From the IMG/VR virus record IMGVR_UViG_3300008258_000005, positions 1 to 62,854 of that record: a DNA stretch of 62,854 nucleotides. One strand, given 5' to 3'. Positions 9,531-56,824 of this stretch are shown one piece after another (positions within the stretch are counted from its first letter, which is position 1; each line of letters begins with the position of its first letter). A model generated the notes under the pieces. The model did not search any database, was not told the origin of the DNA, and was given only the letters and a program-made list of their open reading frames with translations. Made by a program: the position numbers and the translations under genes. Source of the DNA: a virus.

Positions 9531-9591
9531 TAACTTAAAATATTAATTAACTTTAGAAGTTAAGTATACTTGAACTTAAAAAGTTTAAATA

Positions 9592-9621
9592 CAAATATAC
9601 TCTATTGTCAAGAAAAATCAA
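9592..9621 (-). promoter_or_regulatory. Bacteroidota-type promoter (TTG-N19-TATATTTG)
   Basis: On the minus strand, TATATTTG (9599-9592) is preceded at exactly 19 nt by TTG (9621-9619). This fits the known Bacteroidota -33/-7 promoter (TTG/TTTG and TAnnTTTG). It lies 62 nt upstream of the 959-residue gene, in the only sizeable gap of this late cluster. Confidence 0.75.
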
Positions 9622-9628
9622 GCCTTAC

Positions 9629-9781
9629 TTAGCCTTGACCTCTGCTCGCCTTATGGTAGTTCTTGCTTTGCTTTAACTTAGAAGATTTAGTTTTAGCGTG
9701 AACTCCAGGACGACTAACTTTTCCTTTCTCTTTATACAAAGAAGAATTAGAAGTTACTTTGGTAGATTTTTTAGTTGCCAT
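9629..9781 (-). CDS. Small basic conserved phage protein (50 aa)
   Basis: A 50-residue ORF lies between the 548-residue gene (stop at 9783) and the promoter at 9592. It is strongly basic, with Lys, Ser and Arg making up nearly half the residues, and has the core 'KGKVSRPGVHAKTKSSKLKQ' and the C-terminus 'ASRGQG'. I recognise this style of tiny basic protein from many crAss-like and other phages, where its job is not established; binding packaged DNA is possible. The start ATG is adjacent to the upstream stop, supporting translational coupling. The ORF is short, but composition and context make it convincing. Confidence 0.8.
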   Translation of the reverse strand: MATKKSTKVTSNSSLYKEKGKVSRPGVHAKTKSSKLKQSKNYHKASRGQG

Positions 9782-9782
9782 A

Positions 9783-21000: not shown

Positions 21001-21031
21001 CAAATATAATTTAAACTGTTACTAATGTCAA
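21001..21031 (-). promoter_or_regulatory. Bacteroidota-type promoter for the tail operon
   Basis: TATATTTG (21008-21001) is preceded by TTGAC (TTG at 21031-21029) at 20 nt, one more than the other copies. It sits 26 nt upstream of the 209-residue gene and directly downstream of the terminator of the 641-residue gene. Confidence 0.7.
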
Positions 21032-37391: not shown

Positions 37392-37421
37392 CAAATATAC
37401 TATCCTAATATAAAAAGTCAA
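37392..37421 (-). promoter_or_regulatory. Bacteroidota-type promoter for the packaging operon
   Basis: TATATTTG (37399-37392) is preceded at exactly 19 nt by TTG of TTGAC (37421-37419). It is 31 nt ahead of the wHTH gene and should drive the regulator, IHF-like and terminase genes. Confidence 0.8.
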
Positions 37422-37510: not shown

Positions 37511-37951
37511 CTACAACTCCTTAACTAAATCTATTAAGCACTTCTCTACTGCCCTAGAGTATGCTTTTTTGTTGTGAGGAATGTCCTCTACAGTTAGGAA
37601 CATAGCATTGACATAAACGGTCTTTACGTTCCTAGAATAATGTGTAATGTTATTAGCTGTGATGGACATATTGACTACATAGTCCCTCTTTAAAAACTGC
37701 AACCCTGCAATGTTAATTAGTCTTTGAGGCATAGCAATTGTGTTAATTGCAAGGTCAACTCCAATGCCTGTATCGCACAGCGAATACTTGGCAGAGATAA
37801 GTTGTTCAGCCGTTGCCACTATACCAAAGTCTACAGGCCTACCTGCAATAGTTCTTAGTTGTGTGTGGTTTCTAACGGTGTCAATTTTGTAGCATTGTGC
37901 ATTCAACGAACCTGCAAATGCTAGGATTAAGAGTATGATTAGTTTTTTCAT
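37511..37951 (-). CDS. Exported protein of unknown function (146 aa)
   Basis: This 146-residue protein begins with a signal peptide 'MKKLIILLILAFAGSLNAQC', cleaved after Asn-Ala-Gln or retained as lipoprotein at the Cys. The mature part is beta-rich with a helical C-terminus. It is the last gene of the envelope block, one base after the dockerin-like gene. No family recognised; a periplasmic partner of the CsgG-like or T9SS-linked proteins is possible. Confidence 0.65.
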   Translation of the reverse strand: MKKLIILLILAFAGSLNAQCYKIDTVRNHTQLRTIAGRPVDFGIVATAEQLISAKYSLCDTGIGVDLAINTIAMPQRLINIAGLQFLKRDYVVNMSITANNITHYSRNVKTVYVNAMFLTVEDIPHNKKAYSRAVEKCLIDLVKEL

Positions 37952-37952
37952 G

Positions 37953-39155
37953 TTAGTATGTTACTTGTCCTGCATAACCAGGTGCTATTAGGTAAAGACT
38001 TAAACTTCCTCCAGAAGTAAGAGTAGAAGTAGTATAAGTACTGACTCCAGGATAAGTTCCTCTTACATTTGTTGTGGCAGCTTTGATAGCATCATATTGT
38101 GCTGTTGTAAAGATACGGACATCAGGTGCTATTCTCCACTTAGAAAATCTTCCAGCCTTTCTTGCCGCTACGTAGTATTTATCTGCTACAGTTATTTTAG
38201 AGTCATCGTTTACGTCAAACATCTGAAAAGTCAACCCAGTCTTAACCACTTTATTGAGGATGAGGTCTGATATTGCTTGGATGTCTGAGTTTGTGTAGGC
38301 TTGAATCCTAGTTGGAGCATCGACTTGAATAGTGAATTGATTACCTGCTACTGTAGTTCTTGAGAAAGAGTAGTATCCCGATGAGTTAGTATATGCAGTA
38401 GCGTCAAGTACATTAGAACTTGTTGTAGTGGTTGAGGTTGTGTTTATCTCCCAACTAGTGCCAGAAAAAGAACCAGTAGTAACGAGAGTACTTGCCATCC
38501 AAGCACTACCTGTAGATATACCCATTATTTCTTGGTTGGAACCGTCTGCGGTGAATGTTCTCCAAACCACTATCTGCTTTGAGGCTTGGTTTTTAATAAA
38601 GTATAAATCCCAAACATAATTGATTCCCGTTTGGTTGTACTTACAGTTACCCTCGTATCTTACTCTAAACACATCACCGTAAGTTCCATCAGTGTAACTT
38701 TCAGTTGATACATAAGAAACGTTGTTATCTGTTGAGCCATTATCCACCGACCCAATATGGATAGTAGGTTGATTAGGACTAGTAGCATTTCCGTTGTATC
38801 CAGTACTAGAACTTGTTCCAAAAGTAAACCAAGAGTTAGCGTTAACGTGGCCTGAAGAATAGCTAGTTCCTGCGTAAGAAGGACTAAAGCCAGAAGGAAA
38901 TGTAATAGCCACAGACTTTTCATCTGTGTTAGCAGTTGAGTGAAGTACTGAAGTTCCTCGTCCTCTATCTGAAGGAATACCTGAAGTTATCTTAGCAAAA
39001 GTACCTGACTTAGTAGTAGCACCTGCTGTACTCTTGTATATTTTTACGGGAACGTTAGAGGCGCCCGAACCGTTTGCATTGTACAAGTATCCAGAATAAG
39101 TAAATTGAGCCTTCAGAGGACTTGCAAACAAGAGTAGAATGACTAGCCATCTCAT
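37953..39155 (-). CDS. Exported beta protein with dockerin-like segment
   Basis: This 400-residue protein has a signal peptide 'MRWLVILLLFASPLKAQ', then beta-rich Ser/Thr/Gly sequence with a possible lectin or Ig-like core. Near residue 310 the dockerin-like calcium loop 'FDVNDDSKITVADKYYVAAR' is followed by 'FSKWRIAPDVRIFTTAQYDAI'. The same combination, 'MDVNGTSGDISIADVYSVYGR' with 'FFTVAEYNAI', is in the 629-residue neighbour, so the two share a paralogous module. It lacks a T9SS tail. It overlaps the upstream gene by 4 nt. Likely secreted or surface protein made late. Confidence 0.7.
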   Translation of the reverse strand: MRWLVILLLFASPLKAQFTYSGYLYNANGSGASNVPVKIYKSTAGATTKSGTFAKITSGIPSDRGRGTSVLHSTANTDEKSVAITFPSGFSPSYAGTSYSSGHVNANSWFTFGTSSSTGYNGNATSPNQPTIHIGSVDNGSTDNNVSYVSTESYTDGTYGDVFRVRYEGNCKYNQTGINYVWDLYFIKNQASKQIVVWRTFTADGSNQEIMGISTGSAWMASTLVTTGSFSGTSWEINTTSTTTTSSNVLDATAYTNSSGYYSFSRTTVAGNQFTIQVDAPTRIQAYTNSDIQAISDLILNKVVKTGLTFQMFDVNDDSKITVADKYYVAARKAGRFSKWRIAPDVRIFTTAQYDAIKAATTNVRGTYPGVSTYTTSTLTSGGSLSLYLIAPGYAGQVTY

Positions 39156-40504
39156 ATCTTTAACTTACCTCCCATTAAGATTTGATAATTGACGACATCC
39201 TGATTGGCGATGTACGTGCCTCCTCCTGTAAGTCCGAACTTAAAAGTTTTTGTAAGTGAGTAGTTGATGTTTAGAAAAGGAACTATAATTGGTTGAGATT
39301 CAAATAAAGATTCTGTGTAATACTTTGTATAAGGAGCGTAAACACTAGCGGCAATAATAGTAGCATCTATGTGTTTAGTAAGTTGTCCCTTATACATAAA
39401 ACCGCCTATCAGTAGGGTAGATATAACTTCTTCTTGAAATAACTCGCCATACGATGCAGCGGCTCCGTAGAGCGCTGTAAAGTTCTTCAGCGAGTTTACC
39501 CTTACAAACAACAAAGAACCGTTGTAAGACTTTGGCATGAGGTTAATTCCTGCGGAAAGAACATTGATATGTTTGTTGCCTTTCTTGGACATTGTTGCCC
39601 TAGCGTCTTGTGCTTTATCTTGCACTGTTTGGACTCCAACTATATCTCCTGTAACTAGAATAGCTGGTTTTTGAGTTTCTACTTTCCCTTTAGCAGCGGC
39701 TTTTGCAGACGAACTTCCACCTGCTTGTTGGGTTTCACTCTTTTGTTCTTCTATCTTTTCAGGAGTTTTTTCTTCAGGTTTCTTATCACCTGCGGTGCCT
39801 GAACCACCACCTCCACCAGAACCATTACCACCACCACTAGAAGAAGAACTAGAGCCACTCCCAGAGTTACCCCCAGCATCATTAGAGCCATTAGAATTAT
39901 TACCTGAGTTGCTTCCATTGCCTACTTGTCCTTCCGACGACGTATTGGACCCTTGTCCAGATGACTGGTCACTGTTACTAGAATTATTCCCAGAATTATC
40001 AGTAGTACTATTGTTTCCATTACTACCAACTTTGTTATTCGAGCTTCCATTTTTAGAGTCATTTTTTACATTTGTGCCAGAAGATGTTGTACTTCCTACT
40101 GAAGTACTTGATCCTAGCGAAGTCGAAGATAAATCTAAACTCGTTAAAGAGTTAAGATTCATCACATTATTTACTAAAGAAGTTATAGTTGCTGTGCTTG
40201 TAGTTGTAGTAGTTGTTGCAAAAACTCCTTGACATGGGGTTGTTGTTTTGTAATTGGCATAAGTATAATTTAACCAAGCGTCAAATGTACCGTCCTGCAA
40301 TTCTGTGTAACTGAAGTTTTTTACTTGTCCGTAGTAACTTATTACTATCGGAGAGTTCATATCAGCAAGAATGAACTTTAATTCTTTTGTACACGGATCT
40401 GTGTACGAGTAAGTAAAGGACTGAGCTTTTAAACTCAGTCCTATACTCAATAGTAAGATTAATATGTTAGCTCTTAAAGACACCGTTTCTAATAAGGTTT
40501 TCAA
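39152..40504 (-). CDS. Exported protein with Ser/Gly/Asn linker and barrel-like C-terminus
   Basis: This 450-residue protein has a signal peptide (residues 1-28, 'LLSIGLSLKAQ'), a small beta domain to about 95, then about 150 residues of Ser/Gly/Asn/Thr low complexity, a charged Glu/Lys/Gln patch, and a C-terminal domain (about 310-450) whose alternating hydrophobic pattern and closing 'ILMGGKLKI' resemble an outer-membrane barrel end. It overlaps the CsgG-like gene by 38 nt. It might anchor to the outer membrane and span the cell surface. No known family recognised. Confidence 0.65.
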   Translation of the reverse strand: MKTLLETVSLRANILILLLSIGLSLKAQSFTYSYTDPCTKELKFILADMNSPIVISYYGQVKNFSYTELQDGTFDAWLNYTYANYKTTTPCQGVFATTTTTTSTATITSLVNNVMNLNSLTSLDLSSTSLGSSTSVGSTTSSGTNVKNDSKNGSSNNKVGSNGNNSTTDNSGNNSSNSDQSSGQGSNTSSEGQVGNGSNSGNNSNGSNDAGGNSGSGSSSSSSGGGNGSGGGGGSGTAGDKKPEEKTPEKIEEQKSETQQAGGSSSAKAAAKGKVETQKPAILVTGDIVGVQTVQDKAQDARATMSKKGNKHINVLSAGINLMPKSYNGSLLFVRVNSLKNFTALYGAAASYGELFQEEVISTLLIGGFMYKGQLTKHIDATIIAASVYAPYTKYYTESLFESQPIIVPFLNINYSLTKTFKFGLTGGGTYIANQDVVNYQILMGGKLKI

Positions 40505-41156
40505 TCACTTTGGTAGTTGCTGTTTCAAGCGACTTTCGTGTTGCCTTACCTACGGTACTTTGAGAAAACTTCATATCGTCTAGAGATTTTAAGAACGACT
40601 CTCCTACTTTTATAGATTCGCCTTCACCAGAACCAATGTAGATTTGTCCTGTTTTAGCGTCTACAAATCGAACTTGCAAACGGATAAAAGTAGTTACCAC
40701 TACTTTAGCTTTTCCACCTTGTACAGTCTCGTCCTCGTCTACTGCAAAATCAGCAACGGTTACATAAACAAAGTAGTGGGCAGCTTTAATTTTTCCTTTG
40801 CCGTCAATAGGTTCTTCAAAGACTCCTTTTTTAGAAGCTTTGAATTGAGTTACCATCCTTTCCTTGATTTCACCCTTCTCTTCAGTAAATACAAAACGAT
40901 TTGTTTCATCTAAATAATCTAATACGGATTCTGCAAAACCTAAACCTACATTTTTCTCTTGAAGACTTGGGTACATAGCCAACACTTTAGTCATGTCCAT
41001 GCTAATTACTTGTACGTTCTTCTTAATAGAATCAGTATATCCAGACACGCTAGAAATATCTTTTTTCTCAATAACCTCATCCTCGGTTGTGGTCTTCATA
41101 GAACCACAACCATAGATAAGGATTATTAACAGTAGGCTACCAAGGATCTTCTTCAT
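40467..41156 (-). CDS. CsgG-like outer-membrane lipoprotein
   Basis: This 229-residue protein has a lipoprotein signal 'MKKILGSLLLIILIYGCGS' (Cys17). The mature part follows the CsgG pattern: an early 'LGFAESVLDYLDETNRFVF', then 'YFVYVTVADF', then 'LQVRFVDAKTGQIYIGSGEG', then a terminal helix 'TRKSLETATTKVIENLI'. CsgG proteins form nonameric outer-membrane pores that export curli subunits. Here it overlaps the 107-residue membrane-protein gene by 20 nt and the Ser/Gly-rich exported gene by 38 nt. No curli subunit is seen. It might act as a late outer-membrane pore. The fold is inferred by eye. Confidence 0.65.
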   Translation of the reverse strand: MKKILGSLLLIILIYGCGSMKTTTEDEVIEKKDISSVSGYTDSIKKNVQVISMDMTKVLAMYPSLQEKNVGLGFAESVLDYLDETNRFVFTEEKGEIKERMVTQFKASKKGVFEEPIDGKGKIKAAHYFVYVTVADFAVDEDETVQGGKAKVVVTTFIRLQVRFVDAKTGQIYIGSGEGESIKVGESFLKSLDDMKFSQSTVGKATRKSLETATTKVIENLIRNGVFKS

Positions 41157-41460
41157 CTGCTTGGGGTTTAGATGCAGGAGCAGCAGGGGCAGGAGTAGAT
41201 GCAGCAGGTGCTACCTTTTCCTTAATGATGACGGTATTACCGCCACCAGTGTTTGCCTGTTGCTTCTGTTCGTTGTTCGTAGTGATGTTAATCACAGGTG
41301 CGGGAGCAGCTACAGCTGCTGGAGTTTCTGGTTTTTCATCTTCGCCACCACCTAAGTGAGTAGCAAACCAAGCACCACCTGCAGTTACCGCTGTGGTAAT
41401 TGCTCCGATGATTGCCTTCTTTACACCAGACATTCCGCCTTCTTCTTGTTCTTCTGACAT
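41137..41460 (-). CDS. Small membrane protein with Ala/Pro-rich tail
   Basis: The ATG at 41460 ('MSEEQEEGGMSG') gives 107 residues; a longer ORF from 41508 would overlap the upstream gene. A single hydrophobic segment 'AIIGAITTAVTAGGAWFATHL' (about 15-35; 21 residues) is followed by Pro/Ala/Asn-rich linkers and an acidic end 'DEEDPW'. One membrane helix plus a flexible periplasmic tail recalls inner-membrane spanins or a small anchor. It sits between a membrane protein and the CsgG-like gene. Lysis role is inference. Confidence 0.6.
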   Translation of the reverse strand: MSEEQEEGGMSGVKKAIIGAITTAVTAGGAWFATHLGGGEDEKPETPAAVAAPAPVINITTNNEQKQQANTGGGNTVIIKEKVAPAASTPAPAAPASKPQADEEDPW

Positions 41461-41464
41461 AATA

Positions 41465-41815
41465 TTATGGATTAGTTGTGTTTGACAAAGATACACCATC
41501 CTCCTCATCCACCTTCTGTATTAACATTTTGTCTCTATCTTCAGAGTTGAACCAGTAGTCAACTACTTTGTTCAAGTTACCTACAAAAGCTCCTAAGAGG
41601 ATAAGTAACATTTCTTTCCAGTCTTCTCCAATAGAAGCTCCTACAAAGACAGCAGCATTAATACCAACTATGATTAAGGTAAACAACCCCAATACAATAG
41701 CTGTAATTTTCCAACGATTGGCTTGCATTTGTTGCAACATGTAGTAGAAACGATTGTTGTCTGCTACTGCTACGGGTTCTGCTTGGCCAAAACCTAATTT
41801 TTCTTTTAGTTTCAT
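41465..41815 (-). CDS. Two-helix membrane protein, holin candidate (116 aa)
   Basis: This 116-residue protein has two membrane segments: about 36-58 ('ITAIVLGLFTLIIVGINAAV') and 67-82 ('MLLILLGAFVGNLNKVVDY'). The ends are polar and acidic. Its size and topology fit holins or small phage membrane proteins found in Bacteroidota phage lysis regions. It overlaps the T9SS gene's end by 4 nt. A second holin-like gene is at 44800-45054; which acts as the true holin is not decidable here. Confidence 0.6.
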   Translation of the reverse strand: MKLKEKLGFGQAEPVAVADNNRFYYMLQQMQANRWKITAIVLGLFTLIIVGINAAVFVGASIGEDWKEMLLILLGAFVGNLNKVVDYWFNSEDRDKMLIQKVDEEDGVSLSNTTNP

Positions 41816-43701
41816 ATGATTAATAGTTTAGAATCTAGGAATTGTTTTTCTGTTTTAAGAGTTAAGATATAAACTCCGTCAGGTAATCTTTCTAAATCTA
41901 CACTATACTTATAGTTTCCTACAGGCATGTGCTTGTCTAGAATATTTTGGACTAACTGACCTACCTCATTGTACAAAGACAAGTTTACATCAGACTCTTC
42001 GGCTATCTTGAATTGTACTTGGATAGCACCTTCTGAAGGATTTGGAAATGCTATTAGGTCACTTACTTGGTTGATAGATACCAATCCTTTTCTACGAACC
42101 TCAACAATGCCCATAGTAGGTCTAATGTTCATATCCTTAGCCTTGTTATCACCTACGTACTTTTCTGCTGTCCAGATGGCTGCTGTAGCCCAAGAATCCT
42201 GTGGTTTCTTAGCAATGAACTGAAGAGTAAATACTTGTTCTCCGTCTTTTAACAGATTGTCATTTGTAAGGTCAGCTCCTCCCCAAGACACAACTCCATT
42301 AGAAGGGTTTGTGTAGGCAGTCCACTTCATGATTTTTTCTGTTACTTCAATCTGTTTGAAAGACAAGTAAGCAGTATCATATTTAAGGTCTAACTGAAGA
42401 GCAGTAAGGTCTTTACCGTTAGTTAAAACTTTAACTGGTACGCTCACCAAATTGCCATCCTCTACTTTTACTTTGGGCATATTGATTTCTACTGTCTCCA
42501 AAGAAGGATCATCATAGCTTACTGTTTTGTCAATGATGTAGTTCTTAGCATTTGCTTGGTTAACAATTTTAATAGGAGTCAAACGAGCCATTTTAAATCC
42601 TGTAGAGTTTGCGTCTCCTTTAACTGCTACGTAGTAAGTAATAGAGTCTTTACCGTCAATAGAATAGTTGAAGTTGTTAACAGTTGCGTAAGTAGAGGTT
42701 GGATTAGCAGTAGCACCGTTGATAGCATTATACTCAGCTACTGTAAAGAACATTACGTCTTTTTTAGAGTTGGGCCAAGAAGAGAATCTTCCTGCCAAAC
42801 GTCCGTATACAGAGTAAACGTCAGCAATAGAAATGTCTCCGCTAGTTCCGTTTACATCCATAGTGTAGTAGTCAAATCCTGTTGGAGTATATTGTGCAAG
42901 GATTGCTTGGTTAATCTTTTGTGCATCAGCAGTAGAGAATACGTTACCAGGAGTCATTGTATCGCCTTTAACAACCATTCTTACATCCCAGTAGGTAGTA
43001 TCAATAAATTTCTTAAATACTACGTGGCCCAATGAGTTAGTTGATTTTGACTCTACATGTGTCCAAGAACCTGTAGGAGCTTTCTTTTCTAAAGATACCC
43101 AAAGATTCTTAGCATCAGAACCCGTAACGTTTTTAAACTTAGCAGCAAAGCGAAGAACCTTTTGGTTGAAACGACCACCATAAGAGTAGACAACCAAAGT
43201 GGTATCGTTACCCCAGTTAGTAGCAGCTCTATTTGCAAATGATTTCACACCTGCAACTTTCAAAGTCTTGATAGAATCTAAGTTGTTAAATATAGCTTCG
43301 GCAGCGTGAGTAAAAGTTAAATCAAATGTAGCACCGTCAGAATAGTTAAAAGTAGAACTAGAACCTGTGTAAGCTAGAGTTACAGTTAAAAATCCTTGTA
43401 AATTACTATCTACATACTGAAGATACTGATCTGAAGTAGAAATCTTCAAAGAAGGTACAACACCAGTAAATGCAGTGTTATCGTAAAATACACGAAACTG
43501 CATACCTGTAATTTTTTCACTAGTAGAAGTGTTGTAGAAATGTAACGGAGCAACAGTTTTACCTACAGTAGTTGTAGCTACTTGATAACCTGAGTCGATA
43601 ACAACCCAATGCCCAGTTCCAGGAGAAGTGTTTGCACTTTGTGCAAATAAGTTAGTAGTGAGGATAAACAATCCCAACGCAAACAAAAGTATTTTTTTCA
43701 T
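41812..43701 (-). CDS. Secreted protein with cohesin-like, dockerin-like and T9SS sorting domains
   Basis: This 629-residue protein has a signal peptide 'MKKILLFALGLFILTTNLFAQ', a cohesin-like beta-sandwich (about 30-130), a middle domain, a dockerin-like loop 'MDVNGTSGDISIADVYSVY' (about 275), a second cohesin-like sandwich (about 400-520) and a type A T9SS sorting domain: 'IAFPNPSEGAIQV', 'LYNEVGQLV', 'LPDGVYILTLK'. Such tails send proteins through the host's outer-membrane T9SS and attach them to the surface. Presence in a phage late operon is unusual. It overlaps both neighbours by 4 nt. The sorting domain is clear, the adhesive function inferred. Confidence 0.8.
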   Translation of the reverse strand: MKKILLFALGLFILTTNLFAQSANTSPGTGHWVVIDSGYQVATTTVGKTVAPLHFYNTSTSEKITGMQFRVFYDNTAFTGVVPSLKISTSDQYLQYVDSNLQGFLTVTLAYTGSSSTFNYSDGATFDLTFTHAAEAIFNNLDSIKTLKVAGVKSFANRAATNWGNDTTLVVYSYGGRFNQKVLRFAAKFKNVTGSDAKNLWVSLEKKAPTGSWTHVESKSTNSLGHVVFKKFIDTTYWDVRMVVKGDTMTPGNVFSTADAQKINQAILAQYTPTGFDYYTMDVNGTSGDISIADVYSVYGRLAGRFSSWPNSKKDVMFFTVAEYNAINGATANPTSTYATVNNFNYSIDGKDSITYYVAVKGDANSTGFKMARLTPIKIVNQANAKNYIIDKTVSYDDPSLETVEINMPKVKVEDGNLVSVPVKVLTNGKDLTALQLDLKYDTAYLSFKQIEVTEKIMKWTAYTNPSNGVVSWGGADLTNDNLLKDGEQVFTLQFIAKKPQDSWATAAIWTAEKYVGDNKAKDMNIRPTMGIVEVRRKGLVSINQVSDLIAFPNPSEGAIQVQFKIAEESDVNLSLYNEVGQLVQNILDKHMPVGNYKYSVDLERLPDGVYILTLKTEKQFLDSKLLII

Positions 43702-44153
43702 GGTTTATATTTTTGCAATTTTTCATAAAGGTTTGCCAGTAACCAAGGCTCGGGGGTTGGGATGTTTTTAATAAAGGATAATTCATACAAATAGCACTTA
43801 TACTCTTCTTCCTTTTCACTCATGACTGCATCTTGTAAAACAAATACTAAATGCATACTTTCGTGAACTAACACAGCCGCTAAGTTATTGATAGACTTTA
43901 ACTTAATGTCTGCGTCTGCTACTAGTATGGTATAGTCTCCTTCGACTACACCTGTGGAAGAAAAAGAACTTTTCCAAAAATCAACTCTTTGACATACATC
44001 TGTAAAGACTTTGTACTTTTCAGGGTCAATGGTCTTTATAAGTTGTATGGCTGAGTCAATCTTTAAATCCCAACCATCTCCTGCCTTAGCAATAGTTTGT
44101 GCTTTGCAGGAGATAGTCAAGAATATTAAAAGACTAACGAGTAGTCTTTTCAT
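43698..44153 (-). CDS. Exported HExxH putative metallopeptidase (lipoprotein)
   Basis: This 151-residue protein has a lipoprotein-type signal 'MKRLLVSLLIFLTISCKAQ' (Cys16). In the mature part 'AVLVHESMHLVF' gives a zinc-binding HESMH (HExxH) motif near residue 100, followed by Glu residues that could supply the third ligand. It would act in the periplasm or outer membrane. It joins the YkuD-like gene by one base and the T9SS gene by 4 nt. Degrading host surface or envelope proteins is a plausible role. No specific family recognised. Confidence 0.65.
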   Translation of the reverse strand: MKRLLVSLLIFLTISCKAQTIAKAGDGWDLKIDSAIQLIKTIDPEKYKVFTDVCQRVDFWKSSFSSTGVVEGDYTILVADADIKLKSINNLAAVLVHESMHLVFVLQDAVMSEKEEEYKCYLYELSFIKNIPTPEPWLLANLYEKLQKYKP

Positions 44154-44791
44154 TATTTTTTCTTAGCAGCTCTTTTAGCTTCGCCTTTTACTTTGTCAGC
44201 AACAATAAAGTCACCAGACTCAATCAAGGTGTAAGTGAAAGAGTTACCATGAATGCCACGAGCTTGTTTACAGATTTCCATAAATTGGTTAAAATCTTTC
44301 TCACGCTTAAACACTTGGCATCCTTCGCTCCAGTTTTCTACAAAAGTAGAATCTGCACCAGCTTTGTGGATGTTGATACCGTAGATACCCTCAGTGATGG
44401 TATTCTCATCGTAAGTCATGTCTTTGTTAGCATCACGATAAACCTTCACTGGTTTAGCTTGCTTCAAAGCTTCGTACTTACCTTGGTGTAGACCAATACC
44501 GTGTGAACCTCTGTACTGACCTGGAACTAGTCTTGCTACTCCACCAGCATTGTGAAATTCTCTAACACCTTTAGTACCTGGATCTGTGGTAGCCATCCAT
44601 TGGTGAAATACCCATTTGCCTCCTACTTTGTAAGCAACAGTCATAGTGTCATCAAACAAGTTAGTAACATCGTTACCAGTAGAAGAGTTACGTACTCCGA
44701 TGATATTTACATCGTAGTCTTTTGTGCCATCAAAGTAAGCATAGCCCTTGGCTTTTACTGCGGCTTCAATTTGTTCTCTTGTATAGTTCAT
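44153..44791 (-). CDS. YkuD-like peptidoglycan-active protein, candidate lysin
   Basis: This 212-residue protein has no signal peptide. 'GINIHKAG', then a short stretch, then 'WSEGCQVFKR' (about residues 145-175) reproduces the His and the Ser-x-Gly-Cys of L,D-transpeptidase (YkuD) active sites. Upstream, 'HGIGLHQGKYEAL' supplies a further His. In Bacteroidota phages proteins of this type lie by holin genes and are thought to attack cell wall. It lies 8 nt after the holin-like gene. The tail is Lys-rich. Endolysin activity is inference. Confidence 0.7.
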   Translation of the reverse strand: MNYTREQIEAAVKAKGYAYFDGTKDYDVNIIGVRNSSTGNDVTNLFDDTMTVAYKVGGKWVFHQWMATTDPGTKGVREFHNAGGVARLVPGQYRGSHGIGLHQGKYEALKQAKPVKVYRDANKDMTYDENTITEGIYGINIHKAGADSTFVENWSEGCQVFKREKDFNQFMEICKQARGIHGNSFTYTLIESGDFIVADKVKGEAKRAAKKK

Positions 44792-44799
44792 AAGATTAA

Positions 44800-45054
44800 T
44801 TATTCAGCTGAAGTAGAGTTAGATTCAGGTTTTTTCATGATCTTCTCAACAGAAGTCAAACCCAAACAACCAAAAGCCAACAAAGCTACAGCATCTACCA
44901 AAGGAGTAGAAGGAGCAAAGTGTGCTTCGGTAAAAGAATTGGCGTACAAAGTAGCGCACAAAGTCAATGTGCAAAATAAGCCGCACAAACGTTTCATGGA
45001 GACGTTACCCTTTTCGTCTTTGAAAAGTCCTCCAATAAAGTTTACAAATTTCAT
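44800..45054 (-). CDS. Holin-like protein (84 aa)
   Basis: This 84-residue protein has two hydrophobic segments: 'LCGLFCTLTLCATLYANSF' (about 23-41) and 'LVDAVALLAFGCLGLTSVE' (about 52-70), with a charged start 'MKFVNFIGGLFKDEKG' and a polar C-terminus. I recognise this pattern from Bacteroidota phages next to lysins. It lies upstream of the YkuD-like gene (8 nt) and directly after the promoter at 45077-45106, so it heads the lysis and envelope transcript. Pore formation is inferred. Confidence 0.7.
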   Translation of the reverse strand: MKFVNFIGGLFKDEKGNVSMKRLCGLFCTLTLCATLYANSFTEAHFAPSTPLVDAVALLAFGCLGLTSVEKIMKKPESNSTSAE

Positions 45055-45076: not shown

Positions 45077-45106
45077 CAAAAATAAACTATTGAAAAAATA
45101 AGTCAA
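45077..45106 (-). promoter_or_regulatory. Bacteroidota-type promoter for the lysis/envelope operon
   Basis: TATTTTTG (45084-45077) is preceded at exactly 19 nt by TTG of TTGAC (45106-45104). It lies 22 nt ahead of the holin-like gene. A short inverted pair ATAGTTT/AAACTAT flanks the -7. Confidence 0.7.
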
Positions 45107-45129: not shown

Positions 45130-46896
45130 TTAATCTAATCTTAGAAAAGCTTCTAGCTGTTCTCCAACACTTTGAGGAGTAGCTACGTTCTTTAGTCTCA
45201 TTCCTATACTGTTCTCTACTGTAATGTTTGATACTAGATAATCCCAAACAGAAGCAGCGGTCAATACTGCGTTTCCAAAAGTATTATCTACAGGAATTCC
45301 AAAGGTTACTTGGTTTGCACTAGGCATTCTCAAAGTCCCAGTCAATGTACCTAAAGCGTAGGTAGTACCAAACCGCACATCAGAAACTGCTAAGTTATCT
45401 ACTAAAGTTGCAGGAGATACTAAACGAGTAGCAGGTGCAATAGCGCCAGGTTGTATTGCACCATTGGTTGTCTCGTCTCTAAATTCAAAATAAGAACTTG
45501 TACTAGGTATTAAATGCATTCTTACAACTTGGTAAGGAAAGAATCCATACTCATTACATACAAAAGGTCCTGTTAATAGGTTTATAGCAGTACTACTTGA
45601 AGAGACAAAACCGACAGAGTTTCTTCCTGCATAGATAGCTCCTACTTGATTTATGTAAGAGGCGGTAGTACAGTTTATTGCTGGAAAATTATTTGTGCTA
45701 GGAGAGTTTCCTGAAAAAAGATTACCTGTAATATAGACAGTTGCAATCCCTACTATTTGTATTCCCCAATCATTCACTCCTTGGTTTTCACCACCATATA
45801 CGTTTCCAGTAATATTAAGATTGCCTATATTAAAATAAATTCCGTAACCATTGTTGTTAAATCCTTCGCTTCCATAAATATTTCCTGTAACATTCAATGT
45901 GCCTCCTGCACCAAACCAAATACTTGCTACTGGTCCGTTAGTATTAGTTCCAAGTACATTGCCAATGACATTTAATGTACAACTTACGTCTGTTAAAATA
46001 CCGTTTGAATTTCCACCATATACTCTTCCTGTCACGTTAACAACTGCTCCTGCTGTTGTTGTAATATGTAGGATCCTGCTAGTACCATTCGTTGAACCTG
46101 GTTCTAAATTTCCTGTAATACTTAACGTACCTCCTCCTGTTACCTTTATTGTAGAAATAGCTGAAGCAGATGTCGGTCTTAGTATATTTCCAGTACCACA
46201 ATTTATTGTTGCCGTGCCACTACTTGAAAAAGTAATTAAGTCAGTAGACCCAGCAGATAGTCCTGTTTCCCCTGTAGTAGTTACTGTGATTCCACTATTT
46301 AAAATAAATCCACCGCCAGCTACTGCTGCAGTAGTTGATAAATACTCATACAAATAAGTTTCCCTCATTTGTAAAGTAGCAGTGGTATTTATTAAAAACC
46401 TGTATTTTATGTAAGCAACACTATTGCCTATAAGAGGACTGGTAAATGTGTTTACACCTGCAAGTACAGCAGTATATAAAGTAATCCAAGCAGAACCATC
46501 CCAACTTTGGAAAGAGATATTAGTTGTGATACTTCCTCCCAAAACAAAAGTAAACATGTCAATTGCTTTTGGTGAAGTAAATTCATATCCAAAAAAGTCA
46601 CCTGGATTCGCATTGGTAAAACTGTTTTGTGAGACTGACCCATTAAAAGCAATGTAAGCACTTGTTCCTCCTAACCCTGTGACAATACCACTTGGTGTTG
46701 TATTAGAAGTCATTAAAGGAACAGCTGTAATTAGACTTTGTGCTGTGTTTGTTAAAGTATCAACATTAATATTTTGATCTATTGTAACTGTGAAGTTATT
46801 TGACGCTACTATATCTCCTGGGCCAGGAAGAACTCCTCCATTCCACGTTGCTGGGTTTGACCAGTTACCAGATGCTATTGCTGCTCTTAGTGCCAT
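45130..46896 (-). CDS. Beta-helix fibre protein, paralogue B (588 aa)
   Basis: This 588-residue protein begins 'MALRAAIASGNWSNPATWN' followed by 'GGVLPGPGDIVASNNF', nearly identical to the next gene's N-terminus. A discoidin-like segment (about 90-190) is followed by a right-handed-beta-helix-like middle (about 200-460) with Asn/Thr/Gly/Ile-Val repeats ('ITGNVYGG', 'VTGNIYGS'). The C-terminal about 100 residues are conserved with the paralogue. These features fit a receptor-binding fibre. It joins the paralogue by one base (46896). Confidence 0.75.
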   Translation of the reverse strand: MALRAAIASGNWSNPATWNGGVLPGPGDIVASNNFTVTIDQNINVDTLTNTAQSLITAVPLMTSNTTPSGIVTGLGGTSAYIAFNGSVSQNSFTNANPGDFFGYEFTSPKAIDMFTFVLGGSITTNISFQSWDGSAWITLYTAVLAGVNTFTSPLIGNSVAYIKYRFLINTTATLQMRETYLYEYLSTTAAVAGGGFILNSGITVTTTGETGLSAGSTDLITFSSSGTATINCGTGNILRPTSASAISTIKVTGGGTLSITGNLEPGSTNGTSRILHITTTAGAVVNVTGRVYGGNSNGILTDVSCTLNVIGNVLGTNTNGPVASIWFGAGGTLNVTGNIYGSEGFNNNGYGIYFNIGNLNITGNVYGGENQGVNDWGIQIVGIATVYITGNLFSGNSPSTNNFPAINCTTASYINQVGAIYAGRNSVGFVSSSSTAINLLTGPFVCNEYGFFPYQVVRMHLIPSTSSYFEFRDETTNGAIQPGAIAPATRLVSPATLVDNLAVSDVRFGTTYALGTLTGTLRMPSANQVTFGIPVDNTFGNAVLTAASVWDYLVSNITVENSIGMRLKNVATPQSVGEQLEAFLRLD

Positions 46897-48686
46897 TACT
46901 CGTTATTATTTAATGTGGTTTGAATTTGTGCTCCAGTAGTTTCTACTGTAGCAGCGTTTTTAACTCTTCTTCCTATACTATTTAAGGTATTGATGGAAGT
47001 TAGTGGGACAGCCCATATAGCGTTAGGGTCAAGGACTGCTGTTCCTACTGTGTTGTCTACAGGTACATTGTTGGCTACGTTAGACGGAGAAGGTACTATC
47101 ATTGTGCCTGTTTGAGAACCTAATGAATAAACTGTTCCTTGTCGTACATTTGCAGGAATAGGAGAGTCTGCTACTGTATCTGGACTTACCAATCTAGTAG
47201 CAGGAGCAGGAGCAGCTGGAGGTAAAGCTCCATTTGTACTGTTATTTCTAAACTCAAAATAAGAACCCATTGTTCTCCTGTAGTGCATACGAGATACATA
47301 AAGAGGTTGACCTCCTGTAGGAGAAGAAATAAAAGGCCCTGTTAAAATATTAATAGCTGAGGCATTAAGTGATATAAAAATTTGTGATGTAGAAGTTGTT
47401 ACGCTGGAACTTATAGCTCCAATATGATTTACATAAGAAGCTACGTTAGAATAAAAAGCAGGAGCGCTTTGTGTACCTTCTAAGGTAATATTTCCTGTAA
47501 TATTACAAGTACAAACAGCTGCTAGTAGGATGCCGTAACCAGGTTGTCCAGGATTATATCCTCCATAAACATTACCTGTAACATTTAAAGTTCCTGTACT
47601 AGCCATATTAATTCCTCCTGCTCTGTTAGCTCCACTAGGATAAAGATTCCCTACAACAGTAATAGTATTATTTAAACCAGAAGCTGAAATAGCATAGGCA
47701 TCATTATCTCCTCCTCCAAACAAATTACCTACTACATTAAGTGTTATATTATTACCTACTACATGTACAGCATATCCTCCCTGTCCTCCTGCTAATAAAG
47801 CTCCTGTTATATTTACAGTGCCTGCACTTACAAGTCTTAGTCTTGAATTATTTGTTGCCCAAACCTGCAAGTAATTTAAATTAGCAGTAATATTTACATT
47901 CCCACCTCCCGTAACCTCAATACAGCCCCGATTCGTAGCAGATACACTACTGATACCCCCAACTCCTGCACTTATAGTTAATGTAGTACTTGAATTTCCA
48001 GAGTAAGTTAAACAAGTTACCGTTCCTGCTGAAATACTATAGACACTACTTGTAAAAGTTAAAGTTCTAGTTGCGTCTACAATAAATCCTCCTCCTGCTG
48101 TTGCAGCTACAGACAAGGCATCGTACAAATAAAACTCAGTTATTTGAGCTCCTGTATTAGTGCCAGAAAGTACTATTCTATACTTAAGATATGCAGTTGT
48201 ATTTACAAAATATGGACTGGTAAAACTACCATTTGCTGTATGAGTTCCAATAACAATCCAAGTAGAACCATTCCATGCTTCTAAGCTATAACTAACAGTA
48301 TTTGAACCTCCATTAAAAGATACACCGAATCTTCCTATTTTTTTAGCAGTAGCAAATTCGTATGCAATCCAATCCCCTGTAACTGGTCCTGGATAATAAC
48401 AAAGACCAAAACTACGATCAAAAGACAAATAAGCAGAAAAACTTGCAAAACCTCCTGTACCATTATTAGAAGCAATACCACTAGGTGCGGTATTAGAAGT
48501 CATTAAAGGAACTTCGGTTCCTACCGTAGTTGCCGCATTTGTAATTGAATCTACGTTAATATTCTGGTCAATAGTAACTGTAAAGCCGTTAGAAGCAACA
48601 ACATCTCCAGGTTCAGGAAGTACTCCCCCGTTCCAAATAGCTGGATTACTCCAGTTACCAGATGCTATTGCAGCCCTTTGTGCCAT
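46896..48686 (-). CDS. Beta-helix fibre protein, paralogue A (596 aa)
   Basis: This 596-residue protein shares the N-terminal 'AAIASGNWSNPA' block, a discoidin-like segment, beta-helix repeats ('VVGNLFGG', 'VTGNVYGG') and C-terminal part with the adjacent 588-residue protein. The ends match better than the middle, as expected when paralogues diverge in receptor specificity. The 'GNWSNPATWNGG' motif is common in phage and environmental bacterial proteins. It sits one base after the 98-residue gene. Role inferred: tail fibre or tailspike. Confidence 0.75.
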   Translation of the reverse strand: MAQRAAIASGNWSNPAIWNGGVLPEPGDVVASNGFTVTIDQNINVDSITNAATTVGTEVPLMTSNTAPSGIASNNGTGGFASFSAYLSFDRSFGLCYYPGPVTGDWIAYEFATAKKIGRFGVSFNGGSNTVSYSLEAWNGSTWIVIGTHTANGSFTSPYFVNTTAYLKYRIVLSGTNTGAQITEFYLYDALSVAATAGGGFIVDATRTLTFTSSVYSISAGTVTCLTYSGNSSTTLTISAGVGGISSVSATNRGCIEVTGGGNVNITANLNYLQVWATNNSRLRLVSAGTVNITGALLAGGQGGYAVHVVGNNITLNVVGNLFGGGDNDAYAISASGLNNTITVVGNLYPSGANRAGGINMASTGTLNVTGNVYGGYNPGQPGYGILLAAVCTCNITGNITLEGTQSAPAFYSNVASYVNHIGAISSSVTTSTSQIFISLNASAINILTGPFISSPTGGQPLYVSRMHYRRTMGSYFEFRNNSTNGALPPAAPAPATRLVSPDTVADSPIPANVRQGTVYSLGSQTGTMIVPSPSNVANNVPVDNTVGTAVLDPNAIWAVPLTSINTLNSIGRRVKNAATVETTGAQIQTTLNNNE

Positions 48687-50641: not shown

Positions 50642-50976
50642 AGTTAAAGATACTTACTACAAATATATCACTTTACAGATTAAAGTCAAGAGGTAAAACC
50701 AACAAGGCACACTACCCCTTAATAAGGAAAACTCAACTACTAGTAGGACCCAAGGATTTAACTACAGTTTACTTGGTATGTCACCCTAACCCCCTGTAGT
50801 CCCCCAAAGGTAAGTAGAAAATCAAGAGAAAGGAAAGAAGAAGTTATTCACACCTAAGGATAGAGGGAACCCCGCAGGGAACCGCATTTTACCGATAAAA
50901 TAAGACCACTTCTACTTCCATCGTAACTACCCTATAAAGAAATCCACCAAATAAATATTTACTAACTTTGTATACA
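50642..50976. other. Divergent intergenic region between late and early halves
   Basis: This 335-nt gap separates all minus-strand genes from all plus-strand genes. It holds the minus promoter at 50660-50689, a near-tandem 'GGGAACCCCGCAGGGAACCGC' (50866-50887 area), and a small inverted repeat ATTTTA/TAAAAT near 50886-50901. A TAACTTTG lies at 50963-50970, only 6 nt before the plus ATG, with no TTG at 19 nt. I see no ORF of note. Confidence 0.7.
50660..50689 (-). promoter_or_regulatory. Bacteroidota-type promoter for the fibre operon
   Basis: TATATTTG (50667-50660) is preceded at exactly 19 nt by TTG of TTGAC (50689-50687). It is 18 nt from the first minus-strand gene and drives transcription leftwards. 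Confidence 0.8.
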
Positions 50977-56280: not shown

Positions 56281-56405
56281 AGTCAGGTGGCGGAATGGTA
56301 AACGCTACCCAGATAACAGCCGAAAGGTGGGGATTAATCAGAATAGTTATTCTGCAAAGCACTAACGAAACAGATTAATTACAGGTTCGATTCCTGTCCT
56401 GACTA
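56281..56405 (+). tRNA. tRNA-like RNA with abnormal anticodon arm and extended variable region
   Basis: Acceptor stem AGTCAGG/CCTGACT (7 bp, 56281-56287 with 56398-56404), D-arm 'GGCGGAATGGTAAACGC' as in tRNA-Leu types, and a perfect T-arm ACAGG-TTCGATT-CCTGT (56381-56397). Between them are 125 nt in total rather than about 85. No 5-bp/7-nt anticodon arm forms; the best stem CTACC/GGTGG encloses a 16-nt loop. A further stem-loop (ATTAATC/GATTAAT with CAGAATA/TATTCTG inside) fills the variable region. Anticodon not assignable. It may contain an intron, be degraded, or be a tRNA mimic. Confidence 0.5.
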
Positions 56406-56555: not shown

Positions 56556-56630
56556 GGCCCGTTCGTCTAGCGGTTAGGACAATAGGATTTCATCCTAGAA
56601 ACAGAGGTTCAACTCCTCTACGGGCTACCA
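56556..56630 (+). tRNA. tRNA-Glu (anticodon TTC)
   Basis: A complete cloverleaf: acceptor GGCCCGT/ACGGGCT, D-stem GTCT/GGAC, anticodon loop ATTTCAT with TTC, T-arm AGAGG-TTCAACT-CCTCT, and encoded CCA. It reads Glu codons GAA/GAG. First-position closing of the anticodon stem is mismatched (A-G), a small irregularity. Confidence 0.9.
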
Positions 56631-56824
56631 AACAAACTCTCTTACAGAATATAGGTTAGCACTATTGAAAGAAGACTTGACTTATGGGAAGTAGCTACCC
56701 ATAAGCATTAATGACTCAAGGATAGCTGTAATGGATCCTGCTCTGATGTGCACGTCAACAGGTTATGGGGAACAAACCATAAGTAAAATCCACAACTACG
56801 GTAATCGTAGAAGAGAGTTTGTTT
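56630..56824 (+). ncRNA. Candidate structured RNA of about 195 nt closed by a 14-bp perfect stem
   Basis: AAACAAACTCTCTT (56630-56643) pairs perfectly with AAGAGAGTTTGTTT (56811-56824). Inside are CTTATGGG/CCCATAAG, TTATGG/CCATAA and CTACG/CGTAG hairpins. No ORF spans it. The left arm begins at the last base of tRNA-Glu, so it is likely co-transcribed. It does not match tmRNA, RNase P or group I core motifs that I know. Family unknown. Confidence 0.55.

Follow-up and report, generated by a model that had tools for sequence, protein, structure and literature searches.

What does a tailed phage gain from a long run of genes whose products look made for export? The question is raised by positions 37,511 to 45,054 of IMG/VR record IMGVR_UViG_3300008258_000005, a 62.9-kb virus record (62,854 nucleotides, analysed in full and called the window below) that we identified as a tailed phage by its TerL, portal and major head protein. 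Ten near-contiguous minus-strand genes run from 45054 down to 37511, with gaps between successive genes of +8, -1, -4, -4, +4, -20, -38, -4 and +1 nt (negative values are overlaps). An earlier reading made from the letters alone (hereafter the sequence-only reading) had described them as a phage envelope module; its open reading frames are all present where it placed them, on the minus strand, and its observation stands with small corrections. We propose, at a probability of roughly 40%, that a cohesin-bearing scaffold anchored through the type IX secretion system (T9SS) displays dockerin-tagged lectins on the infected cell, most likely masking receptors around lysis. Signal peptides were called as hydrophobic N-terminal stretches, either over a hydropathy threshold of 1.5 or by eye. 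Six proteins (146, 400, 450, 229, 629 and 151 amino acids, aa) had been said to carry export signals, and five of them exceed the threshold; the 400-aa protein reaches a maximum of 1.26, under the threshold, and its signal-peptide-like start was judged by eye.

The case begins with the 629-aa scaffold. Its C-terminal type A T9SS sorting tail (residues 552–628) scored 44.2 bits against Por_Secre_tail (cut-off 27) and 35 bits against TIGR04183 (cut-off 23), and the cohesin before it (residues 405–526) scored 42.9 bits against Pfam Cohesin (cut-off 24.1), bearing out both domain calls of the sequence-only reading. Profile matches in the PDB were to the T9SS tails 8glk (E = 9e-5) and 8glj (E = 0.028) and to a Clostridium cohesin, 6kg8 (E = 6e-5). 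Upstream, residues from about 185 to 345 make up an immunoglobulin (Ig)/transthyretin-like plus dockerin-like tandem, with the dockerin-like domain at about 250–345, and the N-terminus carries a hydrophobic segment over the threshold with, by eye, a FAQ-like site at its end. When 15 diverse proteins of the 629-aa family, one of them from the window, were put to a family-profile test (E ≤ 0.01), the T9SS domain was present in every one and the cohesin in 14; Dockerin_1 matched four (best E = 0.00023). An AlphaFold2 model built on the 629-aa alignment, which held window-side relatives only, was poor (predicted local distance difference test score, pLDDT, 44). Because a phage protein here bears a genuine type A T9SS tail, the natural reading is that the host system exports the scaffold in a T9SS-dependent manner.

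The partner that this scaffold would hold is the 400-aa lectin-type protein, which has no sorting tail. Its dockerin-like domain is homologous to that of the scaffold (P = 4.8e-30, 43% identity), and the Ig parts of the two proteins align at P = 5.2e-8. Domain counts were made in ten long records (122–308 kb, the cultured phage immuto included; E ≤ 0.01). Every one of them has a single T9SS tail, over the cut-off, and two dockerin-like domains, the scaffold and the lectin protein having one each. Cohesins are confined to the scaffold and exceed the cut-off in 10/10 records, with two matches in eight and one in two; the second, N-terminal cohesin is over the cut-off in one record, below it in seven and unlisted in two, and hhalign of the scaffold's N-terminal region against the C-terminal cohesin gave 0.8% only. 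In phages of the immuto group the scaffold is encoded by two genes, gp014, which stops soon after the dockerin-like domain, and gp015, which comprises the cohesin and the tail. Both products start like signal-peptide proteins, so they are predicted to be secreted separately, and such a split is what would be expected if the two halves dock. Pairing of cohesin and dockerin between the scaffold and its partners would fit the domain count per genome, the split scaffold and the tail-less lectin protein alike.

We then asked how far the gene set holds together in relatives, a check that the sequence-only reading had itself proposed. Six genes form the core (629, 107, 229, 450, 400 and 146 aa), and all six are present in 77/77 testable loci (41/41 found with window queries and 36/36 with the immuto query), counted over non-identical loci with at least 5.5 kb of flank on both sides and with near-identical phages still counted separately. 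All loci were baited with 629 or 229, so that co-occurrence is established for the other core genes given the bait. Viral contigs with a relative numbered 98 for the 629 query, 169 for the 229 profile and 113 for immuto gp017, the best 80 being kept in each case; 217 loci with a 229 gene were reduced to 141 that differ over up to 850 nt at that gene, comprising 83 window-side loci, 57 immuto-side loci and one contig of a metagenome-assembled genome (MAG). "Window-side" and "immuto-side" refer to the query that fetched a locus and not to the tree: L177, fetched with the immuto query, groups on the window side of the tree. As the cluster recurs in diverged phages, it goes beyond chance. Phage immuto, cultured on Flavobacterium sp. 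LMO8, carries the core set with its scaffold split in two; in its annotation the products of the module genes (gp013–gp019) are called hypothetical proteins, lectin C-type proteins or cohesin domain proteins. A scan of genome contigs with the 229 profile, which reaches fairly close relatives only, returned the one MAG contig (L147, Sphingomonadaceae), probably a mis-binned phage contig; its lectin gene is in two fragments.

Within this constant set the middle domain of the lectin protein is exchanged. In named relatives it exceeds the cut-offs for Lectin_C, PA14, GEVED, or Laminin_G_3 together with Lectin_C; the Lectin_C (PF00059) scores are 65.7, 63.7 and 57.3 bits in L004, L012 and L082, respectively, against a cut-off of 22.6. 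Exclusion of lectin genes shorter than 300 aa left 116 proteins from 115 loci, whose middle domains clustered into five groups and two singletons. Four of the groups (Lectin_C, unnamed, GEVED and PA14) are shared by immuto-type phages, with their split scaffolds, and phages elsewhere on the tree. With loci that have less than 560 aa of scaffold sequence also excluded, 100 tips remained on the scaffold tree, across which at least 33 switches of lectin type are needed; among the 65 scaffold pairs that are more than 93% identical, 19 have unlike lectin types. One locus (L171:3494-5770) has tandem lectin-dockerin genes with different middle-domain types beside one split scaffold, and the first of the two alone entered the type count. 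The sequence-only reading had missed this swappable lectin domain, as it had the shared dockerin-like domain, the lysis genes that adjoin the module in diverged phages and the split scaffold of a phage in culture.

Features of the module and its surroundings in the window
Feature	Coordinates	Strand	Remarks
Promoter-like site TTGACT-N-TATTTTTG (TAnnTTTG)	45077..45106	-	precedes first gene (84-aa)
84-aa small membrane protein	44800..45054	-	hydrophobic segment by hydropathy; holin-like by topology only; associated, not core
212-aa endolysin-like enzyme	44153..44791	-	associated lysis gene, not core
151-aa secreted protein, predicted metallopeptidase (HExxH)	43698..44153	-	lipobox-like Cys in window, not conserved
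629-aa scaffold	41812..43701	-	core; signal peptide, weak N-terminal cohesin, Ig/transthyretin-like, dockerin-like, cohesin, T9SS tail
116-aa small membrane protein	41465..41815	-	frequent companion; hydrophobic segment by hydropathy
107-aa protein	41137..41460	-	core; membrane segment by eye, Pro/Ala/Glu-rich tail, conserved acidic-W end
229-aa CsgG/LptE/PelC-fold periplasmic or outer-membrane protein	40467..41156	-	core
450-aa secreted protein	39152..40504	-	core; two invariant Cys in N-terminal domain, linker rich in Ser/Asn/Gly, C-terminal domain beta-rich
400-aa adhesin-like protein	37953..39155	-	core; signal peptide, unnamed 'W' middle domain, Ig, dockerin-like
146-aa secreted protein	37511..37951	-	core; probable 229-aa paralogue

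These features suggest how the module might work. The scaffold would leave the cytoplasm by Sec export, pass through the host T9SS by virtue of its sorting tail and become fixed at the cell surface, where its cohesin or cohesins would hold dockerin-bearing partners: the 400-aa protein and possibly, via the scaffold's own dockerin, more copies of the scaffold. Since the 400-aa protein lacks a sorting tail, it would either ride out bound to the scaffold or cross with help from four accessory proteins, namely the 229- and 146-aa proteins, the 450-aa protein (a putative barrel) and the 107-aa protein (a putative inner-membrane tether). Once displayed, the lectins would bind host-type surface glycans in cis. 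The most likely use would be to mask the receptors of the phage itself and of its rivals, both on the infected cell and on its debris once it lyses, whereby superinfection would be excluded and progeny would escape being trapped on debris. Of the earlier proposal that the phage redirects host secretion, the genuine tail and the superinfection shield, still among the likely purposes, survive; the CsgG-like pore is unsupported. A more specific version is possible, at odds short of even: a cohesin-T9SS carrier would take tail-less, dockerin-tagged lectins through the T9SS with the assistance of a phage trans-envelope complex (107, 229, 146 and 450), and the phages would swap lectin cassettes while keeping the scaffold, so as to mask or recruit host-relevant glycans.

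Expression of the module is probably late and linked to lysis; for the window, its neighbours make late timing plausible. Of the 64 loci with at least 7.9 kb of flank, 53 have an endolysin-like gene no more than 3 kb from the core (35/35 window-side and 18/29 immuto-side). Two of the remaining immuto-side loci have an endolysin further off, and nine, immuto among them, have none by two endolysin queries. These nearby endolysins belong to two families, one phrog_33083-like and the other GH19 with PG_binding_1, and company with lysis functions is therefore frequent whatever their origin; the nearness may reflect shared function or merely shared timing. A holin-like cluster (family 4, one member checked by Pfam) lies near the module in 15 immuto-side loci. 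A DNA/RNA non-specific endonuclease that looks secreted (Endonuclease_NS; L161 scores 81.8 bits) is found near it in 12 immuto-side loci, for example at L082:9935-10513 and L161:4141-4755. The Llp protein of phage T5 is a late lipoprotein that masks the phage's receptor, excluding superinfection and protecting progeny from debris, and often-exchanged lectins beside lysis genes fit masking of glycan receptors in that manner. The likeness lies in the function proposed for the module; the difference is that a single small lipoprotein, Llp, blocks a receptor that is a protein, in place of lectins on a scaffold.

Several observations weigh against lectin display for receptor masking. The surface location of every module protein is predicted from sequence, and the lectin ligands are hypothetical; the window's own middle domain (the 'W' type) found no named family in the Pfam search. 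The dockerin matches are weak: Dockerin_1 matches seven of 18 dockerin-like domains (best E = 0.0012); the scores given with a cut-off in relatives, 17.0 (L020), 15.1 and 15.2 bits, all lie below it (22.9); the best PDB dockerin match has E = 0.34; and, by eye, one DxNxDxxxxxxD calcium loop of two is well kept, the first repeat being degenerate. Lectin types also follow the tree in part, 33 changes comparing with a mean of 51.7 and a minimum of 44 in 200 label shuffles, so that lectin type is inherited to some degree, yet often replaced. The endolysin nearness was counted without a control for chance, and the immuto module comes after genes for replication and nucleotide functions, endolysin-free within 3 kb and with the annotated endolysin about 5.7 kb away, which opposes strict lysis timing. 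Finally, the accessory genes go unexplained, because masking needs no set of four accessory proteins.

The same display anatomy could serve another end. Acting in trans, the displayed lectins might glue the infected cell to its neighbours or to particles, so that progeny meet hosts at once. This sibling capture, which we regard as unlikely, accords with the frequent exchange of lectin types and has been proposed for the curli genes of pelagiphages in the accessible text of PMC7029224 and PMC9599517. If the endolysin adjacency at 53/64 loci means lysis timing, however, little time is left for adhesion, and the available portion of PMC9004378 reports no clumping in its own, different system.

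A further possibility moves the emphasis from the lectins to rupture of the outer membrane. The 107- and 229-aa proteins would form an inner/outer spanin-like pair, the 450-, 146-aa and HExxH proteins would help in the breach, and the lectins would be secondary. In the window the 107-aa gene shares 20 nt with the 229-aa gene, and in 17/17 loci inspected it lies between scaffold and 229; its product looks single-pass with a long Pro-rich tail by eye, although its hydropathy maximum of 1.39 leaves the membrane segment under the threshold. It is one of three small membrane proteins in the earlier account, all of whose genes exist; the start that gave it 123 residues was wrong, and the conserved MSEE start gives 107 aa. 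Holin-like and endolysin genes near the module on both family sides also speak for this reading, as does the 151-aa protein, described earlier as an HExxH lipoprotein. Its HExxH motif is kept in 90/90 copies of at least 130 aa, whereas the lipobox-like Cys is not conserved; its gene is present in 36/41 window-query and 20/36 immuto-query loci, is frequently on the opposite strand (the gene order of the module varies) and was not found in the fetched immuto-group loci, and the protein matched no named family above cut-off. The 229-aa protein has a lipid-anchor Cys in the window and in 80/83 window-side members, but by our heuristic the Cys is missing in 31/57 immuto-side and 3/83 window-side members. 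With a T9SS-anchored scaffold and exchangeable lectins superfluous for spanins, we consider the odds to be well against a lysis stage as the module's purpose.

The 229-aa protein had been read as CsgG-like, but its link to CsgG itself is weak. With an E limit of 1, none of Pfam, PHROGs and NCBIfam gave a CsgG match for the window's protein. Elsewhere, a CsgG (PF03783) match fell at the 229 gene in one of 12 records (E = 0.0027; 11.2 bits against a cut-off of 20.8, the best score seen) and in one of 14 members of the 229-aa family (E = 0.024), and hhalign against an 11-sequence CsgG profile gave a probability of 62 (P = 7e-5). AlphaFold2, run on an alignment of window-side relatives only, returned a poor model (pLDDT 51); CsgG chains fill the first eight Foldseek rows for it at a template modelling score of about 0.3, none at E = 0.001. 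In VIA-align the model gave Z scores of 8.0 for Cj1090c, 6.3 for RAD52 and LptE and 5.9 for CsgG and PelC, where differences below 1 are ties, Z below 8 may mean merely a common arrangement and unlisted families are not excluded; Cj1090c thus stands above CsgG, with which RAD52 and LptE tie. These comparisons lend moderate support to placing the protein in the CsgG/LptE/PelC fold group. At what we take to be the position of CsgG's second membrane hairpin, the stretch matched by eye is about 11 residues shorter (hand count).

The other accessory proteins bear on the same point. The 146- and 229-aa proteins are probably paralogues, judging by an hhalign probability of 92 (P = 6.6e-7), the signal peptide being part of the aligned stretch. 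A CsgG, CsgF or CsgE origin of the 146- and 450-aa proteins was considered and dropped as unsupported: four hhalign comparisons with CsgG, CsgF or CsgE all gave probabilities below 1%, among them 146 against CsgE (one sequence) and 450 against CsgF (three sequences), curlin repeats not being searched for. Given the apparent kinship of 146 and 229, the missing link between 146 and CsgG also counts against 229 as CsgG. The 450-aa protein matched no family in our searches; its C-terminal domain looks like an outer-membrane barrel, a putative assignment read by eye from the alignment. Compared with L050:13198-14661, on an otherwise near-identical contig, the window's 450-aa gene (39152-40504) is without an in-frame stretch of 111 bp in the C-terminal domain, by deletion or an assembly effect.

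Two further explanations fare worse. Scaffold and lectins might decorate released particles and aid adsorption; the module adjoins a gene like those of tail proteins (588 aa, phrog_17517) and itself lies some 2 kb ahead of the terminase gene, and lectins are described as usual on virions in the accessible text of PMC7824862. Against this, the module proteins all start like exported proteins, whereas tailed virions assemble in the cytoplasm, and the immuto module sits among replication genes. A further dockerin-like domain was found in none of the ten long records, and therefore no partner domain was recognised on a virion protein. Given the export-type starts and the want of another dockerin-like domain in these ten records, decoration is the least likely of capture, rupture and decoration, and we judge it quite improbable. 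A CsgG-type pore, through which the 229-aa protein would open the outer membrane or export its partners, is very unlikely, as each of the matches above is below its curated cut-off or non-significant, the paralogue-like 146 has no CsgG link, the hairpin region is shortened and the lipid anchor is not conserved.

Display of lectins on a T9SS-anchored scaffold has partial parallels in known systems. In cellulosomes a cohesin-bearing scaffoldin holds dockerin-bearing partners with exchangeable functional domains; the present module differs in being phage-borne, with one or two cohesins, lectins in place of enzymes, a T9SS-tail anchor and a weak dockerin match. In the accessible text of Bellas et al. 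2020 (PMC7468147), Cryophage proteins carry T9SS type A tails and use of the host T9SS is proposed; that cargo, one protein of which has PA14, is highly variable between phage variants, as here. The Cryophage cases described there are single cargo genes (endoglucanase, GH39, PA14), in contrast to a fixed six-gene set in which the only tail found is on the cohesin scaffold and the tail-less dockerin-like lectin protein is separate. The curli genes CsgF, CsgG and CsgA-B of pelagiphages and of phage Melnitz, for which the available parts of PMC7029224, PMC9599517 and PMC9004378 propose roles in aggregation, exclusion and lysis, resemble the module in being a multi-gene envelope secretion set; that set, in marine phages, includes a CsgG-family protein, whereas here 229 is only distantly CsgG-like, and a T9SS tail and a cohesin/dockerin-like lectin protein stand instead. 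In crAss-like phages, T9SS sorting domains occur near, and once fused to, BACON domains of carbohydrate-binding type (PMC6949934), where the text available reports neither a cohesin/dockerin pair nor a conserved envelope set. Overviews of jumbo phages (PMC7824862) and gut phages (PMC8008677) mention lectins in their accessible portions and not cohesin or dockerin, and the available text of PMC7077304, on immuto's host strain, does not name immuto phages. No phage cohesin/dockerin lectin set is described in the literature searched, subscription papers being mostly outside its reach.

The wider result is a conserved, multi-lineage module for candidate lectin display in large phages that can be tested in a cultured phage. 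It would give a concrete picture of host-surface remodelling by Bacteroidota phages in infection and would add cohesin-dockerin assembly to the viral toolkit; if true, it would to our knowledge be the first cellulosome-like modular assembly in viruses, and a piggy-back route for the T9SS. The Flavobacterium-isolated immuto phages have the whole core set and a split scaffold, which makes docking testable with two natural proteins, and the module offers a natural test of T9SS export of a protein complex. The lectin cassettes are also candidates for binding glycans on the surfaces of Bacteroidota. Outer-membrane handling at lysis by phages of Bacteroidota is, as far as we know, poorly understood, and a module found near unrelated endolysins in diverged phages bears on it.

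The remaining genes of the cluster are companions of the core. The 212-aa enzyme had been called YkuD-like; it matched no YkuD family, and PHROGs places it with the endolysin family phrog_33083 (E = 4e-12) and the unnamed phrog_3000 (E = 5e-37). By eye it contains what we take to be a Cys-containing YkuD-type motif, unconfirmed by a family match. Relatives of the 84-aa protein, which has no Pfam or PHROG name, occur at 38/83 window-side and 8/57 immuto-side loci, many of them short, and those of the 116-aa protein at 69/83 and 17/57.

The promoter proposed ahead of the cluster was recovered as a Bacteroidota-type TTGAC-N-TAnnTTTG motif just before the first gene, with a -7 element, TAnnTTTG, that we presume to be of Bacteroidota type. 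There are five such sites on both strands of the window (four minus, one other) against 0.56 expected, and one of 100 shuffles reaches five, figures to be read in the light of the pattern having been picked after inspection of intergenic sequences. The minus-strand sites are intergenic and ahead of gene blocks, at 50660-50689, 45077-45106, 37392-37421 and 21001-21031; the gap at 9531-9782 has a similar TTGAC...TATATTTG sequence with shorter spacing. The alternative Bacteroidota pattern TTTG-N17-23-TAnnTTTG was rejected, with two matches against 3.3 expected.

Upstream of the module, 45130-46896 and 46896-48686 encode tandem, similar-looking proteins of 588 and 596 aa, the first being the one that matches the tail protein family phrog_17517. 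In L004, the module genes, the 400-aa one excepted, are 90–100% identical to the window's, and the tandem proteins only about 50%. Elsewhere in the window, two tRNA matches lie at 56281-56405 and 56556-56627, the first of which spans an unusually long 125 nt and is absent from the ARAGORN list. Beside them, at 56727-56788 on the plus strand, is a freshwater-1 RNA (RF02979; 79.7 bits against a gathering threshold of 72).

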